From a virus, in IMG/VR virus record IMGVR_UViG_3300009506_002205, positions 1-22,889 of that record: a DNA stretch of 22,889 bases, one strand, 5' to 3'. A program made the position numbers and the translations under genes. Below the pieces are notes generated by a model. That model was not told the origin of the DNA and ran no database searches. It saw nothing but the letters and a program-made list of their open reading frames with translations. Numbering within the stretch: position 1 is the first letter of the stretch; each line of letters opens with the position of its first letter. Of this stretch, positions 1,883-22,889 are shown in pieces.

Positions 1883-4159
1883 TCATGTCGCCTTGGGTGC
1901 CATACGTGGCACAACAGCACAGCGACAATTACAAATCTCCTCGGCAGCGCCAGTGTAAGGATCACCCGGATACCGCAACTGCGCGTTCCCAACACGAAAC
2001 GTCTCGGCAGCACGGACAACCTGACCATCGGCGGCCTGATGACTTTCCCTGACGCGCCCGTCCCGAGCGGACAACCACTCCTTGTACGGCATGCCCGCTT
2101 CCGTGATCAACGCCTGCGCACCTGCGTTCAACGCACCATTAGCTTCTGTACGGGCGATGGACTCGGCGCGGGCAGCCGACATCTCTATGTCCGTCGCACC
2201 CAGTATGCGGGCTTTGAGACCATCAACGGCCTCGCCGGACATCATCCAGTCACTGACCGCTCGACGTATGGCGTCTCGCGTGACACTGTTGATGTGGCGG
2301 ATACGAATAGGCTTGGTCTCAAGGTACCAAGCAATCTCCTCGTTCAGTGCCGTTACCTTTTCCGGCACACCGTACATGTCGGCCAGCGTCTGCGCTTCAG
2401 CCACCGATAGCTGGCGACTAATTGCCAGTAATCCGGCCACCAAGCGATCATCGGCAGCTTCACCCAGTGCCGCTGCCAGTATTTTCTCGGCCATACCCTC
2501 ATGCTGGCGGGCCGGTACAACATCATCGACCGCCGCCAGCAAGTCCTTACGCTGGCGGCGCCATTCTTTCGTCAGGAACTCTTGGTACATGGTCTCGCCG
2601 CGCATGCTCCGAGCGACGAACCGTGCCCACCATATACCACGATAGACTTCGCTGGCGAACAGATTATCATCGGGCCTTCGGTGACCCAATAGCAGGCCGC
2701 GTGGCGGCTCATCGCCAGTCGGCTCATCTATTACCGGTTGCTCGCTACCGGCCACACCGACAGTCGAGCCCGGTGGCTGGGGTACAGTTTGTGGTGCACC
2801 CAGCGCCACATCCAGTACATCCGTAGAAGCACCGACCGGCACCAAGATGTCCTGCATCTGAATCTTGATTCGGTCGCCCAGTTCCTCTGGGAAGGGCTCA
2901 AGATCGGCGTCATCGCGGGCCTCGTTCAGTGTACGGATGCCACCCTTGAACTCCTCAAGCCGCTTCTCTAGCTGGAATTGTCTGTCTTCTGGCACTGGGT
3001 CAGGGAACCCCAAATCGTACCATGAAGTGTTCTCATCCCACGATGACAACACTTCCGCTTGTATGGTTTCAACAATACGAAGCATTTCAGGACGAATGGT
3101 TTCTCGGTTGAATGTCGCATCCGCCGCTTCGCTGTTGGACCGGTTTACGTCAGCGACCAGCCCAAGCTTGGCCTTGGGAACACCGTAAATGGCGACCAGT
3201 TGGTCAAGGTTCCACTCAGCAAGGCCAAGGAACTGTATGTCGGTGTTGGTCAACTGAAGGGCTTTGGGGGTCAACCCGCTACCCAATATTGCGGGCAGGT
3301 GGGAACGTGAAGCGCCGCTGAATTCGGCACGCCACTCTTGCAGAATGAGTTTGGCTTGTTCCGGTGCTATGGGCTGGTCGGTGACGAGTACGTAATCGGG
3401 ACGTGCGCTATTTTCAAAAAAGTTGCGGTGGTACTGGTTCATAAAGGACTGCGTGTCGTGGGCATACGCAGCCGACTTCAACATCGACCAACCAAAGATG
3501 TCATCGATGGGGGCAGGCATCTTGAAGTGCACAACATCTTCTCTGTTGAGCGATTCGACAGACCCATCCGCCTTGACGAACGCCCAGCCTTGTAGATAGC
3601 CGTCCTTATTGGTAACGGCATACATCGAATCGGGACGCAACACCCAAAACTCGGCTGGGTCGCCCGCGTTATCCCTGACGATCAACCAGAAGGCGTTCCC
3701 AGTCAGGCACAGGTGTATTTCCGTCCGTTCCTTCAATATGAAACCCGTCTTCTCGTGCATCGGGTTGGGCCGGTAGATAATGTCCAAGAAGGGGTGGGTT
3801 TCGATCTCCTCAATTTCCAAGTGGCCGCGTTCATAATTCGCCAAGTTAGCCCTGTTCAAGCCAATGACCTGACGTTCCAAACGACGACGTGCCCGTGTGC
3901 GCTCCGGCGTGACCCTACCGGCGATAGCCCGCCCGTTGCCATTCACCTCCGTCACCTTAAATAACTGGAAATCCAGTTCCGCTATTCGCTTGGCACGGGT
4001 ATGGATCGCGGCATACGTGAAATGCTCGTATGCCCTCAACTGATCGGTTAGGTTGGATTCGCGGCTATATCCGTATGGGCTGGGAATGCTTCCGCCGAAG
4101 ACAGATGGTATTTTAGGCGCCTGCCGAGCGGCCAGAAGCCGAAGCAATTTTGTGATCAT
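1883..4159 (-). CDS. Portal protein fused to Mu F-like (SPP1 gp7-type) minor head protein
   Basis: The portal is the dodecameric ring at the capsid vertex through which DNA is packaged. The first ~465 residues read as an HK97-type portal: early YEHFTYAAIHTRAKRIAEL, then ETHPFLDIIYRPNP, GNAFWLIVRD, DVVHFKMPAP, IFGWSMLKSA and IYGVPKAKLG. After a Pro-rich linker the C-terminal ~150 residues match the Phage_Mu_F fold: ARAESIARTEANGALNAGA, GMPYKEWLSARDGRVRESH and a terminal ICNCRCAVVPRM. At 758 aa it is about the sum of two separate proteins in most phages. Start chosen: ATG at 4159, preceded by GGTGGA; the frame extends to a TTG at 4201, which is less likely. MuF domains are injected or minor capsid proteins needed for head morphogenesis; here that role is family knowledge only. 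Confidence 0.92.
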   Translation of the reverse strand: MITKLLRLLAARQAPKIPSVFGGSIPSPYGYSRESNLTDQLRAYEHFTYAAIHTRAKRIAELDFQLFKVTEVNGNGRAIAGRVTPERTRARRRLERQVIGLNRANLANYERGHLEIEEIETHPFLDIIYRPNPMHEKTGFILKERTEIHLCLTGNAFWLIVRDNAGDPAEFWVLRPDSMYAVTNKDGYLQGWAFVKADGSVESLNREDVVHFKMPAPIDDIFGWSMLKSAAYAHDTQSFMNQYHRNFFENSARPDYVLVTDQPIAPEQAKLILQEWRAEFSGASRSHLPAILGSGLTPKALQLTNTDIQFLGLAEWNLDQLVAIYGVPKAKLGLVADVNRSNSEAADATFNRETIRPEMLRIVETIQAEVLSSWDENTSWYDLGFPDPVPEDRQFQLEKRLEEFKGGIRTLNEARDDADLEPFPEELGDRIKIQMQDILVPVGASTDVLDVALGAPQTVPQPPGSTVGVAGSEQPVIDEPTGDEPPRGLLLGHRRPDDNLFASEVYRGIWWARFVARSMRGETMYQEFLTKEWRRQRKDLLAAVDDVVPARQHEGMAEKILAAALGEAADDRLVAGLLAISRQLSVAEAQTLADMYGVPEKVTALNEEIAWYLETKPIRIRHINSVTRDAIRRAVSDWMMSGEAVDGLKARILGATDIEMSAARAESIARTEANGALNAGAQALITEAGMPYKEWLSARDGRVRESHQAADGQVVRAAETFRVGNAQLRYPGDPYTGAAEEICNCRCAVVPRMAPKAT

Positions 4160-4173
4160 GTATTCCACCCACT

Positions 4174-4190
4174 GGGCGCACGACGCGCCC
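4174..4190. other. GC-rich hairpin just upstream of the portal start
   Basis: A perfect 6-bp inverted repeat (GGGCGC / GCGCCC, 5-nt loop) sits in the 96-nt gap 4160-4255 between the methyltransferase stop and the portal ATG, about 14 nt before the start and just upstream of its GGTGGA. It has no T-run. It could moderate portal translation or separate the two transcripts. A loose TTGGCA-like element lies further upstream in the gap, without a convincing -10. Confidence 0.35.
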
Positions 4191-4255
4191 CTCCACCACA
4201 ACCCCTATACGTAATCTATGTCCGACTACCGCTACCTGCCAAATACCCAAACACC

Positions 4256-4858
4256 CTACCGGCGGCGAAGCCAGTATTCAAACCCCTTGGTCTTGGGCTT
4301 TCGGCGCTCGGCAAAAGATTCGATGACGTGCGTTTCCGTCAAAACTGAGGTCCACCACGATTGCGGCTTGACCGTCACGTGCACGTGTAGTCCGCCGACA
4401 TTGCGATCAAAGGCGGCGATTTCGGCATACGTATACTTGGCTACGCGAGCGAACTCGCGCATCGTATCGCGGATCAGTATTTCGGGCACGTGTTCCAGTA
4501 CATCGCAAGTAAAGATGACATCGAAACTATCATCTTCATACGGTAGGTCCCACGCGGGTGCCGCCTTGAAATACGGCATAACGGTGGGGCGTAGGTCTTC
4601 GTTGATACAGTCGGCAGCGATGTCGCACGCCTCGACGGCAAAGCCTTGGCCGAGAAGGTGGGCTACCGTGCGACCGCTGCCGCAGCCAACATCGAGTATG
4701 CTCTGACAACCACGCTCGCGGGCATCGGCCATAAAAACGTCAATGCCCCGCATGCCGGGGCTGATTCGTCGCTCCTGTGGCAAAAGCCAATACTTGTTGT
4801 ATTTCTCGCGCTCGCTCCGCTTCAGGTCTTCAAGTTCCCTCTCCACCGTCATCCTCAT
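4256..4858 (-). CDS. SAM-dependent class I methyltransferase (third in the window)
   Basis: Motif I is clear, SILDVGCGSGRTVAHLLGQG, followed by an acidic residue at the end of strand 2 (EACDIA) and the post-motif FDVIFTCDVLEHVPE, which is typical of Methyltransf_11/25-type small-molecule or glycan methyltransferases. The N-terminus is a charged helix (ERELEDLKRSEREKYN), then YWLLPQERR. The C-terminal third has LHVHVTVKPQSWW, as seen in some sugar-operon methyltransferases. The start is uncertain: ATG at 4858 or 4852, or GTG at 4846 with AGGA 5 nt upstream. All overlap the end of the Mre11-like gene by under 30 nt, whereas the longest frame (to 4957) would overlap by 128 nt. The substrate cannot be read. 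Nearby glycosyltransferase and FkbM genes suggest a glycan rather than DNA; no target-recognition domain or DPPY motif is present. Confidence 0.8.
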   Translation of the reverse strand: MRMTVERELEDLKRSEREKYNKYWLLPQERRISPGMRGIDVFMADARERGCQSILDVGCGSGRTVAHLLGQGFAVEACDIAADCINEDLRPTVMPYFKAAPAWDLPYEDDSFDVIFTCDVLEHVPEILIRDTMREFARVAKYTYAEIAAFDRNVGGLHVHVTVKPQSWWTSVLTETHVIESFAERRKPKTKGFEYWLRRR

Positions 4859-5984
4859 CCGTTTTTGCCTCGTTGAGATAGCGTTGGCCAAGTCGTGCCA
4901 ATGCCTCGCGGTCCAGTTGCTTATCCTCGGGTCGAAATCCTTGGAGAATAAAATCATTCAATATCTCATTTAGACCTTGGCGCGGTAACGATCCGCCAGA
5001 TGATCCCTTAGTGGTATATTGCGGCTGTCGCATATCCAGATGCAAGTGCACGAACTGTTTGCGGTAGTGAGCTATCCGCTTCTGATCCAACTCGCGGCGC
5101 ACCTGCTTGGGTACGTTCAACAAAACCAAGCGAGCGATACTGTGCACCTGTTTTCCGGTCAGTGCCCCTGCAATGATTTCATCAACTTCGTAAGGCGTCC
5201 TCCCAGTACAGTCCATCGGGCCGAGGTCGTAGACGGGTCGTGGGCTTTGTAGGGCGACGAAATAGTGCGTACTGGGATACTGGGTATCGAAGATTACCAG
5301 CCCTTTATCCTCCTTCGCTTCCGCCCAGATGTTGCTGCTCGTACGCTCGATGGCACCGGGATAGACTACGTGCGGCTTCAAAGATGTATACGTATGGTAG
5401 TCACCCAAGGCTACGTAGTCCCAGTCGCTCGGGTCGATCTCCTCGGCCCGAATCGTCTGCGCTCCATGTCGGACCTGTGGCTTATATTGGGTGGATGCGG
5501 CATGAATCAGCAGAATGTTGTATTTGGCCGATTTGTCCGGCTTTAGTTCGGGCCGCATCAGGACAGCATTGTGGCTCACGGCCAGTACGTGCCAATCGTC
5601 ACCGTAGATACTGCGCGGCTCATTGTAGGCCACCTTGACCGATGCCCCGCCGTCGATCTGATTGAACAACTCCAAGATGTTGCCCGTATCCTTGCTGCGC
5701 GGCGATTCGTGGTTGCCCGCCACCATGATGATCGGGGCCTTCGTCTCCTCGTGCAGCCGCTTGAACATGCGGAATGCGTACGTCACGGTCGCGTTGGGTG
5801 GCCGGACGGTATGGAAGATGTCACCCGCAACTACCGTCAGGTCAGGCTTGGCATCGATCACCACTTGAATGGCTTCCTTGAACGCCCTGGCTACATCGGC
5901 CTCGCGCAGGTTAACACCGGACCCCACGGTCTTGTGGTAGGCCCGGTAACCCAAATGCAGGTCAGCTAGGTGCGCTACCTTCAT
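4830..5984 (-). CDS. Mre11/SbcD-like metallophosphoesterase nuclease
   Basis: Calcineurin-like nuclease core in order: DLHLG (D8, H10), VVAGDIFH (D55), VAGNHES (N91, H92), LLIHAA (H161) and VALGDYHTY (H197). These are the five phosphoesterase motifs of the Mre11/SbcD family, which process DNA ends with a Rad50/SbcC ATPase. The last motif normally reads GHxH; here the first His is Asp (D195), so metal binding or activity may differ. The C-terminal ~100 residues (YRKQFVHLHLD, LNDFILQGFRP) resemble the Mre11 capping/Rad50-binding region and end in a Glu/Asp-rich tail. Length 384 aa is normal for SbcD. ATG at 5984 was chosen because the family begins MKxxHxxDxHLG; the frame extends upstream without similarity. 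No Rad50/SbcC gene is present in the window. Confidence 0.88.
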   Translation of the reverse strand: MKVAHLADLHLGYRAYHKTVGSGVNLREADVARAFKEAIQVVIDAKPDLTVVAGDIFHTVRPPNATVTYAFRMFKRLHEETKAPIIMVAGNHESPRSKDTGNILELFNQIDGGASVKVAYNEPRSIYGDDWHVLAVSHNAVLMRPELKPDKSAKYNILLIHAASTQYKPQVRHGAQTIRAEEIDPSDWDYVALGDYHTYTSLKPHVVYPGAIERTSSNIWAEAKEDKGLVIFDTQYPSTHYFVALQSPRPVYDLGPMDCTGRTPYEVDEIIAGALTGKQVHSIARLVLLNVPKQVRRELDQKRIAHYRKQFVHLHLDMRQPQYTTKGSSGGSLPRQGLNEILNDFILQGFRPEDKQLDREALARLGQRYLNEAKTDEDDGGEGT

Positions 5985-6435
5985 CGATGAAGCCAATCCG
6001 GCGTAGGTTGATGATCGTGGGTGGTCGTGGATGAACAACCGGCGCGGGCCTCGACAGGCCGCGCATCCACTTGGTAAGACATTCGGTGAGACAGCGGCTG
6101 TGACGTTCTCGGGCAAAAACCACTGTGAAACCGCGACACGGGTCCCAGTCTACCGTTAGCTCGCCCTTCGTGAGCCACAGGCCGTTTTGGTGCTGCGTGA
6201 CATGAATGGGGTCGTCCACATCGTACCGTATAAACCATGGGGCCGTCTTTATGAGTACCTGCCACCGCCACCAGAAAAAAGCCTGTAGCTCCCCAACCAT
6301 GTAGCCTAACCACCAACCATGCTTAGTCGCCATTGCCGTGGTCTGTCTGTCTGCGGCGAGGCCAACACCGTCGCGGACCACACGACCGGCAACAACAGGA
6401 AAGACTATTGAATCAGTTTTAGCTACCGAGCACAT
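5962..6435 (-). CDS. Hypothetical protein, Trp-rich middle
   Basis: Not recognised. The 157-aa frame starts with ATG at 6435, overlapping the upstream stop by 17 nt, and its end overlaps the Mre11-like start by 23 nt. That spacing fits the rest of this operon. An internal ATG at 6333 (MATKHGWWLGYMV) would give 123 aa but leave an 85-nt gap with no visible Shine-Dalgarno site. The middle is aromatic (LQAFFWWRWQVL) and may be amphipathic or membrane-associated. The C-terminal half has WDPCRGFTVVFARERHSRC and a basic, Pro-rich end. Confidence 0.5.
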   Translation of the reverse strand: MCSVAKTDSIVFPVVAGRVVRDGVGLAADRQTTAMATKHGWWLGYMVGELQAFFWWRWQVLIKTAPWFIRYDVDDPIHVTQHQNGLWLTKGELTVDWDPCRGFTVVFARERHSRCLTECLTKWMRGLSRPAPVVHPRPPTIINLRRIGFIDEGSAPS

Positions 6436-22141: not shown

Positions 22142-22889
22142 TCAGTTCAGCCGGGACGGGGCTGCTACGTTCATGCGGTCGAGCACGCCCTCCCTCGTTT
22201 GGGTTTGTTGCCCCGTCCCGACGTTGTATCTCGAGGCGCACCGCCTGCACCACCAACCCAACTCGCTACGAACCATCCGCGATTCGGGGAAACTGTCGCC
22301 GCAACCTAGCACCCTATCACCGCACGGGTGGTGTGCCTCGGTTGGCGCGTCCAGCCACTCGAGCCACCGTTCGTTCGGCCCGAAGAATGTCGCCGCCTGC
22401 ATGATGTACCGCGGTTCGGTGCCCTCGCGTTCGCAGTGGTCCGCGTAGTTGCGGGTGGCGGTCAGTAGCTTCTCGTGGCTGACGCCTTCCTTGAGTCGCT
22501 TTTCGTAGGCTGCCCGTGCCTGCTTCTTCGGGTTCGGGTGCCGTTTCGGATAAGTTTTCCACACCTCGTCGAACGATGTGTTTCTCTCTTTATTCTCTCT
22601 TTCTTTGATATAGACGTGTCCCGCCTCTGTCCCACCGCTGTCCCGCGACCCCTGATAACTCGCGTAGTTGCAGATAGTTATGTGTCCCGCCTCTGTCCCG
22701 CGGCTGTCCCGCCTGATTGCGCCCTCGTCCTCGAGGCACTGTAAGAACCGGCAGACACTAGACTTACCTACCATCCAGCGGGTCGCCAGATCGCGTACCG
22801 TGGCACTGAGTTCGCCGCGTTTCATCTTCGGCGTGTCCTTCCAGTTGGCGAGGTAGAGCATATCGACCCACCAGAGCTTCCAGGCCAGC
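22142..22889 (-). CDS. Replication initiator / replisome-organiser-like protein (5' end outside window)
   Basis: Partial: the frame stays open to the right edge, so the N-terminus is missing. The visible start KLWWVDMLYLANWKDTP, then MKRGELSATVRDLATRWMV and KSSVCRFLQCLEDEGAIRR, is the winged-helix layout of phage replisome organisers and lambda O-like initiators. After a repeat-rich linker comes SFDEVWKTYPKRHPNPKKQA and RYIMQAATFFGPNERWLEW, a pattern known from phage replication proteins (family form YIPxPATxLxxxRWxD). The C-terminus has CGDSF and WWCRRCASRY, possibly zinc binding. It probably binds the origin and recruits helicase. Iteron-like repeats lie inside its own gene. Confidence 0.75.
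   Translation of the reverse strand, partial: LAWKLWWVDMLYLANWKDTPKMKRGELSATVRDLATRWMVGKSSVCRFLQCLEDEGAIRRDSRGTEAGHITICNYASYQGSRDSGGTEAGHVYIKERENKERNTSFDEVWKTYPKRHPNPKKQARAAYEKRLKEGVSHEKLLTATRNYADHCEREGTEPRYIMQAATFFGPNERWLEWLDAPTEAHHPCGDRVLGCGDSFPESRMVRSELGWWCRRCASRYNVGTGQQTQTREGVLDRMNVAAPSRLN
22580..22613. other. AT-rich pyrimidine tract beside the iterons (possible unwinding element)
   Basis: 34 nt with 24 A/T, and almost all pyrimidine on the plus strand (runs of TTTCTCTC, TTATTC, CTTTCTTTGATA). It directly abuts the first iteron. In lambda, an AT-rich strand-biased region next to the iterons is where the helix opens; the same role is inferred here. Confidence 0.5.
22617..22712. repeat. 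Iteron-like array: six TGTCCC(G/A)C on one 11-bp register (candidate origin)
   Basis: Copies at 22617, 22628 and 22639 (one with A), then 22683, 22694 and 22705: two triplets at an exact 11-bp period, with the triplets 66 bp (6 x 11) apart, so all six face the same side of the helix. The 11-bp period is not a codon multiple, so protein coding does not explain it. It lies within the replication initiator gene, as the lambda origin lies in gene O. Confidence 0.75.

Follow-up and report, generated by a model that had tools for sequence, protein, structure and literature searches.

Phased iterons within a phage replication initiator gene: a putative embedded origin whose repeats co-vary with the recognition helix

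An initiator gene and its iterons

The DNA analysed here (the window, 22,889 nucleotides) is the whole of the virus record IMGVR_UViG_3300009506_002205, and at its far end, on the minus strand, lies a replication initiator gene that runs off the contig, its 5′ end being missing. The features on which the argument is built are the following:

22142..22888, minus strand: replication initiator gene, 248 residues read, assigned through phrog_270, several DnaD-like/O-like families and profile A1.
22652..22882, minus strand: N-terminal winged-helix DNA-binding domain (residues 3–79), closing with the conserved ITICNYxxYQ; profile A1, AlphaFold and Foldseek.
22727..22765, minus strand: recognition helix (residues 42–54, KSSVCRFL...), placed by the AlphaFold model and the co-variation of columns 59 and 63.
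22683..22712, plus strand: iteron array 1, TGTCCCG at 22683, 22694 and 22705 (CGGGACA on the coding strand), encoding the wing, residues 59–69.
22617..22646, plus strand: iteron array 2, TGTCCC(G/A) at 22617, 22628 and 22639, encoding the flexible linker, residues 81–91.
22572..22616, minus strand: AT- and purine-rich tract directly after the last iteron, a candidate unwinding element.
22337..22606, minus strand: C-terminal domain (residues 95–184), matched by phrog_26426 over 95–184.

The protein matches phrog_270, “replication initiation protein” (E = 8e-24), and the N-domain profile A1 (E = 8e-24, the window sequence being one of the 20 seeds of that profile), and the PHROG families 270, 2514, 35955 and 186, annotated as “replication initiation” or “DnaD-like helicase loader,” are matched both by it and by all or most of the A1 members. 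The signature of the winged-helix family, RGQ...WxWSKSxVxRFL...ITICNYxxYQ (profile A1; phrog_35955/2514/186), is present in it, and AlphaFold predicts a winged helix, with the wing at residues 58–72, as it likewise does for the N-domain of a complete relative (pLDDT 90.3). The best Foldseek matches of the N-domain are mostly generic winged-helix regulators, no replication initiator appearing among the best 50, and in Pfam neither the window protein nor the A1 members match a family specific to this domain, only generic winged-helix families, weakly. The C-terminal domain is common to phage replication proteins with different N-domains and likely contacts a helicase or its loader. No helicase gene adjoins the initiator gene in the window, which is a fragment; elsewhere it carries, on the minus strand, a portal protein fused to a head-morphogenesis (MuF-like) domain (1883–4201) and, near it, an SbcD-like nuclease gene (4830–6116).

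On the plus strand, TGTCCC(G/A)C is found at 22617, 22628, 22639, 22683, 22694 and 22705, that is, as two triplets with steps of 11, 11, 44, 11 and 11 bp and an offset of 66 bp between triplets, all of which agrees with a previous, sequence-only reading of this DNA. The whole window contains eight such 8-mers, against 2.5 ± 1.6 expected, and six of them fall inside 96 bp. That reading had assigned both triplets to the linker, which is correct for 22617–22646, a segment of low confidence in the AlphaFold model, whereas 22683–22712 encodes the wing in that same model. It had also placed all the copies on one face of the DNA; however, at 10.5 bp per turn the six copies lie at 0, 17, 34, 103, 120 and 137 degrees, and with a phase that drifts this far the copies cannot all share one face of relaxed B-DNA. 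These positions would be better accommodated by a head-to-tail array, in which each monomer takes up 11–12 bp, than by binding along one face.

On the minus strand, successive copies of the 11-bp unit fall in all three reading frames: cGG GAC A as R-D-S, GGG ACA as G-T, and GGA CA as G-H. Among 20,000 synonymous recodings that followed phage codon usage, none reached the 10 lag-11 hexamer matches observed (mean 0.08), nor the six copies of GGGACA (mean 0.28). Both results bear out the statement, already made from the sequence, that the period does not come from codon repetition.

Phasing across the initiator family

The seed alignment of A1 was made mostly from genes first selected by their repeat, while later retrieval was by protein alone, blind to DNA repeats; the window protein, used as a single query against viral contigs, brought out no relatives. 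Eighty relatives were collected with A1, together with 80 more distant ones and 39 from bacterial genomes, and the phasing counts were made on non-redundant subsets of 68, 47 and 38 genes, respectively. Identical hexamers at lag 11 numbered 788 in the first set, against 66 ± 18 in synonymous shuffles, 460 against 59 ± 11 in the distant set, and 328 against 35 ± 9 in the set from bacterial genomes. The sequence-only reading had put forward, as a check on its claim, a phasing kept while the codons drift, and it is kept in 62 of 68, 31 of 47 and 32 of 38 genes. The counts at lags 10 and 13 are small and match or approach those of the shuffles (no more than ~2.6 times their mean); lags 12, 22–24, 33–35, 66 and 78 are raised in the relatives, and the C-terminal region of the same genes holds only eight lag-11 hexamers.

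Each gene uses essentially one word across its copies, and this word varies from gene to gene (CGGGACA, CGACGCA, CGATACA, CGAGACA, CGAAACA, CGGGGCA, CCGGACA, CGCCGCA, CGGAACG, and others). The positions of the iterons relative to the domain are nearly fixed across relatives despite the differing words and peptides; an equivalent wing array is found in them, with a linker array at a similar offset from it in most. Iterons phased at 11–12 bp in the DNA of the wing and linker are a feature of the family, and the window gene shares it.

At least 120 viral contigs contain three copies of GGGACA at 11-bp steps, and many of these loci are initiators with ITICNYxxYQ. The raw number of matches is no evidence by itself, because scans at 10 and 12 bp also give many, those listed being mostly unrelated repetitive genes; among the matches listed, the loci holding the initiator family number 23 at 11 bp, against 1 at 10 bp and 6 at 12 bp.

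Other repeat arrays were also met. In marine-type phage contigs an intergenic element (L003:3350–3500, L008:3330–3470, and, on the minus strand, L012 and L043) carries GGTGTCCCTnAGGGACACC and then GGGACACC at 11 bp, and has in addition another small array and a palindrome that finishes in T-runs, with no gene inside; it is conserved among the four contigs read, and some 20 loci among the matches listed for GGGACA at 11 bp belong to this GGTGTCCCTnAGGGACACC/GGGACACC type. Six further loci (L009, L020, L036, L042, L057 and L060) have 11-bp GGGACA arrays in coding regions that lack ITICNYxxYQ, with the three-frame peptide RD-GT-GQ, and these could possibly be convergent embedded origins. GGGACA at 10-bp steps is found in phage proteins of the KRRQRA type, as well as in repeated genes whose arrays lie on both strands (L258, L271, L330, L345, and others), and there are phage proteins consisting largely of DSVWDSVRDSVGASV-type repeats, with a DNA period of 12 bp (L128, L132, L136, and others). 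The Salmonella plasmid pZ1322PSL0030-3 (L582; 5,872 bp, circular, with phage-like regulators and ParA) has an ORF of 209 aa, lacking annotation, in which the A1 domain and a repeat linker are present but the C-domain is apparently missing. Relatives through the C-domain only (Arthrobacter Prairie, SfV, BcepMigl, JC1, and others) were not counted, having other N-domains and no comparable 11-bp array in the scan; the initiator of Burkholderia phage JC1 (L370:830–930) has a 15-bp in-frame linker repeat with six CCCGGAT, in which the peptide PSPDKPGPVE is repeated.

The recognition helix and the iteron word

The relationship between protein and word was examined in 87 members, at most 80% identical, with the columns encoded by the iterons themselves (the wing) excluded. 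The variable centre of the word co-varies most with columns 63, 59, 48 and 60 (mean Z 10.8, 10.0, 7.8 and 6.1), the other columns giving 1.0 ± 1.4; the rank of column 48 may reflect phylogeny. AlphaFold locates column 59 where the recognition helix begins, with column 63 one turn further on, and in the window protein they correspond to Lys42 and Cys46. Within this set, word position 4 is G in 41 of 42 members with Lys59 and C in 15 of 17 with Glu, Asp or Asn59, while Gln63 is accompanied by ATA in 7 of 9 and Asp63 by GG in 26 of 26. The window, with Lys42 at column 59 and CGGGACA as its word, obeys the first of these rules. The difference between CGGGACA and CGGGGCA finds no explanation in columns 59 and 63. 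The register of the words was set partly by the consensus CG...CA, and because of this the constancy of the outer positions is partly built in; the Firmicute/Bacteroidetes-like relatives, which entered the phasing test, were left out of the code because the register is ambiguous there.

The same rules were met outside this set. Forty further sequences, at most 80% identical to those already used, came from one scan and two smaller sources, and 38 were tested, two plasmid/phage records being omitted: Lys59 accompanies G in 13 of 14, against 4 of 24 for other residues (p = 5e-6), and Glu or Asp59 accompanies C in 5 of 5, against 2 of 33 (p = 4e-5). As a control for relatedness, 49 disjoint pairs of relatives with different words were compared with 38 pairs sharing the same word: of the former, 73% have different residues at 59 and at 63, compared with 35% for background columns, and of the latter 21% differ at these two columns. 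This co-variation suggests that the initiator probably reads the repeats in its own gene.

A candidate origin in the gene, and the embedded origins already known

In the window, AT makes up 67% of the 45 bp that follow the last iteron, compared with 39% of the gene as a whole, and purines 69% on the coding strand. For 86 members, the first 30 bp beyond the iterons average 67% AT, with 43% in the gene (p = 9e-16), and 78% purine, and in 43 distant members the same interval is 72% AT, against 59% (p = 1e-10), and again purine-rich. The gene downstream of the initiator is a primase/helicase, a DnaB-like helicase or a helicase loader in 13 of 20 relatives sampled, in a sample that leaned to longer genes, and some relatives adjoin DnaC-like or DnaB genes. 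In Sulfitobacter phage pCB2047-A, 8 of the 11 genomic copies of CGGGACA lie inside the initiator gene; the GC skew of this complete phage tracks gene orientation, being dominated by the gene strand.

Taken together, the iterons, which are conserved at the level of DNA and co-vary with the recognition helix, the AT-rich tract, and the replication genes that lie near this gene in relatives make it very probable that this is a self-contained phage initiator with an embedded origin, its winged helix binding iterons in its own gene. In this replicon module the protein would begin with a winged helix, continue through a disordered linker, and end in a domain in contact with the replisome, and the DNA encoding the wing and linker would be the origin itself, an activity suggested by the layout and by analogy with proven systems. 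The steps could have been: (i) the recognition helix would read a 7-bp iteron (here CGGGACA, with GGA as its variable centre) on its own gene; (ii) given steps of 11–12 bp, the monomers would line up head to tail and form a helical nucleoprotein array; (iii) this array would melt the adjoining AT- and purine-rich tract; (iv) and finally, the C-domain would recruit the helicase or its loader, and replication would begin there.

An alternative explanation is that the repeats are an operator, by which the protein would mainly repress or time its own expression, with replication starting elsewhere. Replication initiators often autoregulate, and what co-variation makes probable is that the protein reads the repeats, which says nothing of the effect of its binding; however, the array lies more than 170 bp into the coding sequence, away from a promoter, and the AT- and purine-rich tract comes after it, a layout that matches proven embedded origins, and we consider the operator unlikely. 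It is more improbable still that some other protein, of host or phage, binds the repeats and that their overlap with the initiator gene is incidental, since although GGGACA arrays also exist in contigs without the initiator family, some of them intergenic, the word shifts together with the recognition helix of the very protein which that gene encodes, and does so in the further sequences too. Finally, that the repeats are nothing more than the result of a flexible, repetitive peptide or of a recent tandem duplication, an idea favored by the low complexity of the linkers and by the ability of duplication to make repeats, deserves hardly any credence, because 11 bp is not a multiple of three and a peptide repeat cannot therefore give this period, because synonymous shuffles lose the 11-bp signal, and because the copies keep almost the same places with respect to the conserved domain whichever word the gene uses.

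It seems to us somewhat probable that one stretch of DNA does double duty, being bound by the initiator while also encoding the wing of its DNA-binding domain, and that recognition helix, wing and some 6–10 iterons change together, as a lock and key proper to each phage, in such a way that the family would form a natural collection of initiators paired with their iterons through a code that can be read (Lys59/G; Glu/Asp59/C; Gln63/ATA), and of mutually independent replicons. Phage origins could be found from sequence alone in a widespread family of initiators, which includes those of phages from the human gut and from staphylococci whose only annotation is “DnaD-like”; proteins naturally matched to their DNA targets would be available for studying how winged helices choose those targets; and the way in which an origin changes specificity would become testable where the same bases are both the target and part of its reader.

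Embedded origins as such are already known (lambda O, Tuc2009, pSK41), and in open-access papers we found no description of this class of iterons or of the recognition code; PHROG 270, 2514, 35955 and 186 are family annotations in which iterons are not described. In lambda the origin lies in the middle of the O gene, with iterons bound by the O initiator and then an AT-rich tract (PMC7466680). The window gene shares with it this layout of iterons followed by an AT-rich tract within an initiator gene, a likeness from which origin activity would follow by analogy. The sequence-only reading had proposed a lambda-like self-contained initiator and origin, and the phasing, co-variation, AT tract and neighbours favor this proposal, but not membership of the lambda O family: the A1 profile gives no N-domain match to lambda O even at maximum sensitivity (E = 0.097, with the wrong region aligned), and the four iterons of lambda ori are of 18 bp at steps of 20–24 bp, whereas those of the window family have 7-bp cores at 11–12 bp. 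One array in the wing, another in the linker, and a diversity of words between phages also set this family apart from lambda.

The lactococcal P335 replisome organizers (Rep2009 of Tuc2009, ORF13 of TP901-1) bind direct repeats in their own gene, which are the ori, and the passages of that account consulted here report no co-variation of recognition helix and word (PMC8965321). The rep gene of Tuc2009 contains CAACCA four times at exactly 11 bp, that of TP901-1 gives no 11-bp signal, and neither Rep protein matches the A1 N-domain profile; given Tuc2009, 11-bp phasing may extend beyond the window family. In the RepA_N plasmid pSK41 the ori also lies inside rep, in the part encoding the linker, and the N-terminal domain binds the iterons (PMC5703833), although the window protein and the A1 members have no match to the RepA_N domain of Pfam (PF06970). 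In PLE RepA, too, the N-terminal domain binds iterons, as is proposed for the initiator of the window, and orf46 of S. aureus phage PVL, which matches A1 (E = 2e-29), carries repeats at 11, 22 and 33 bp.
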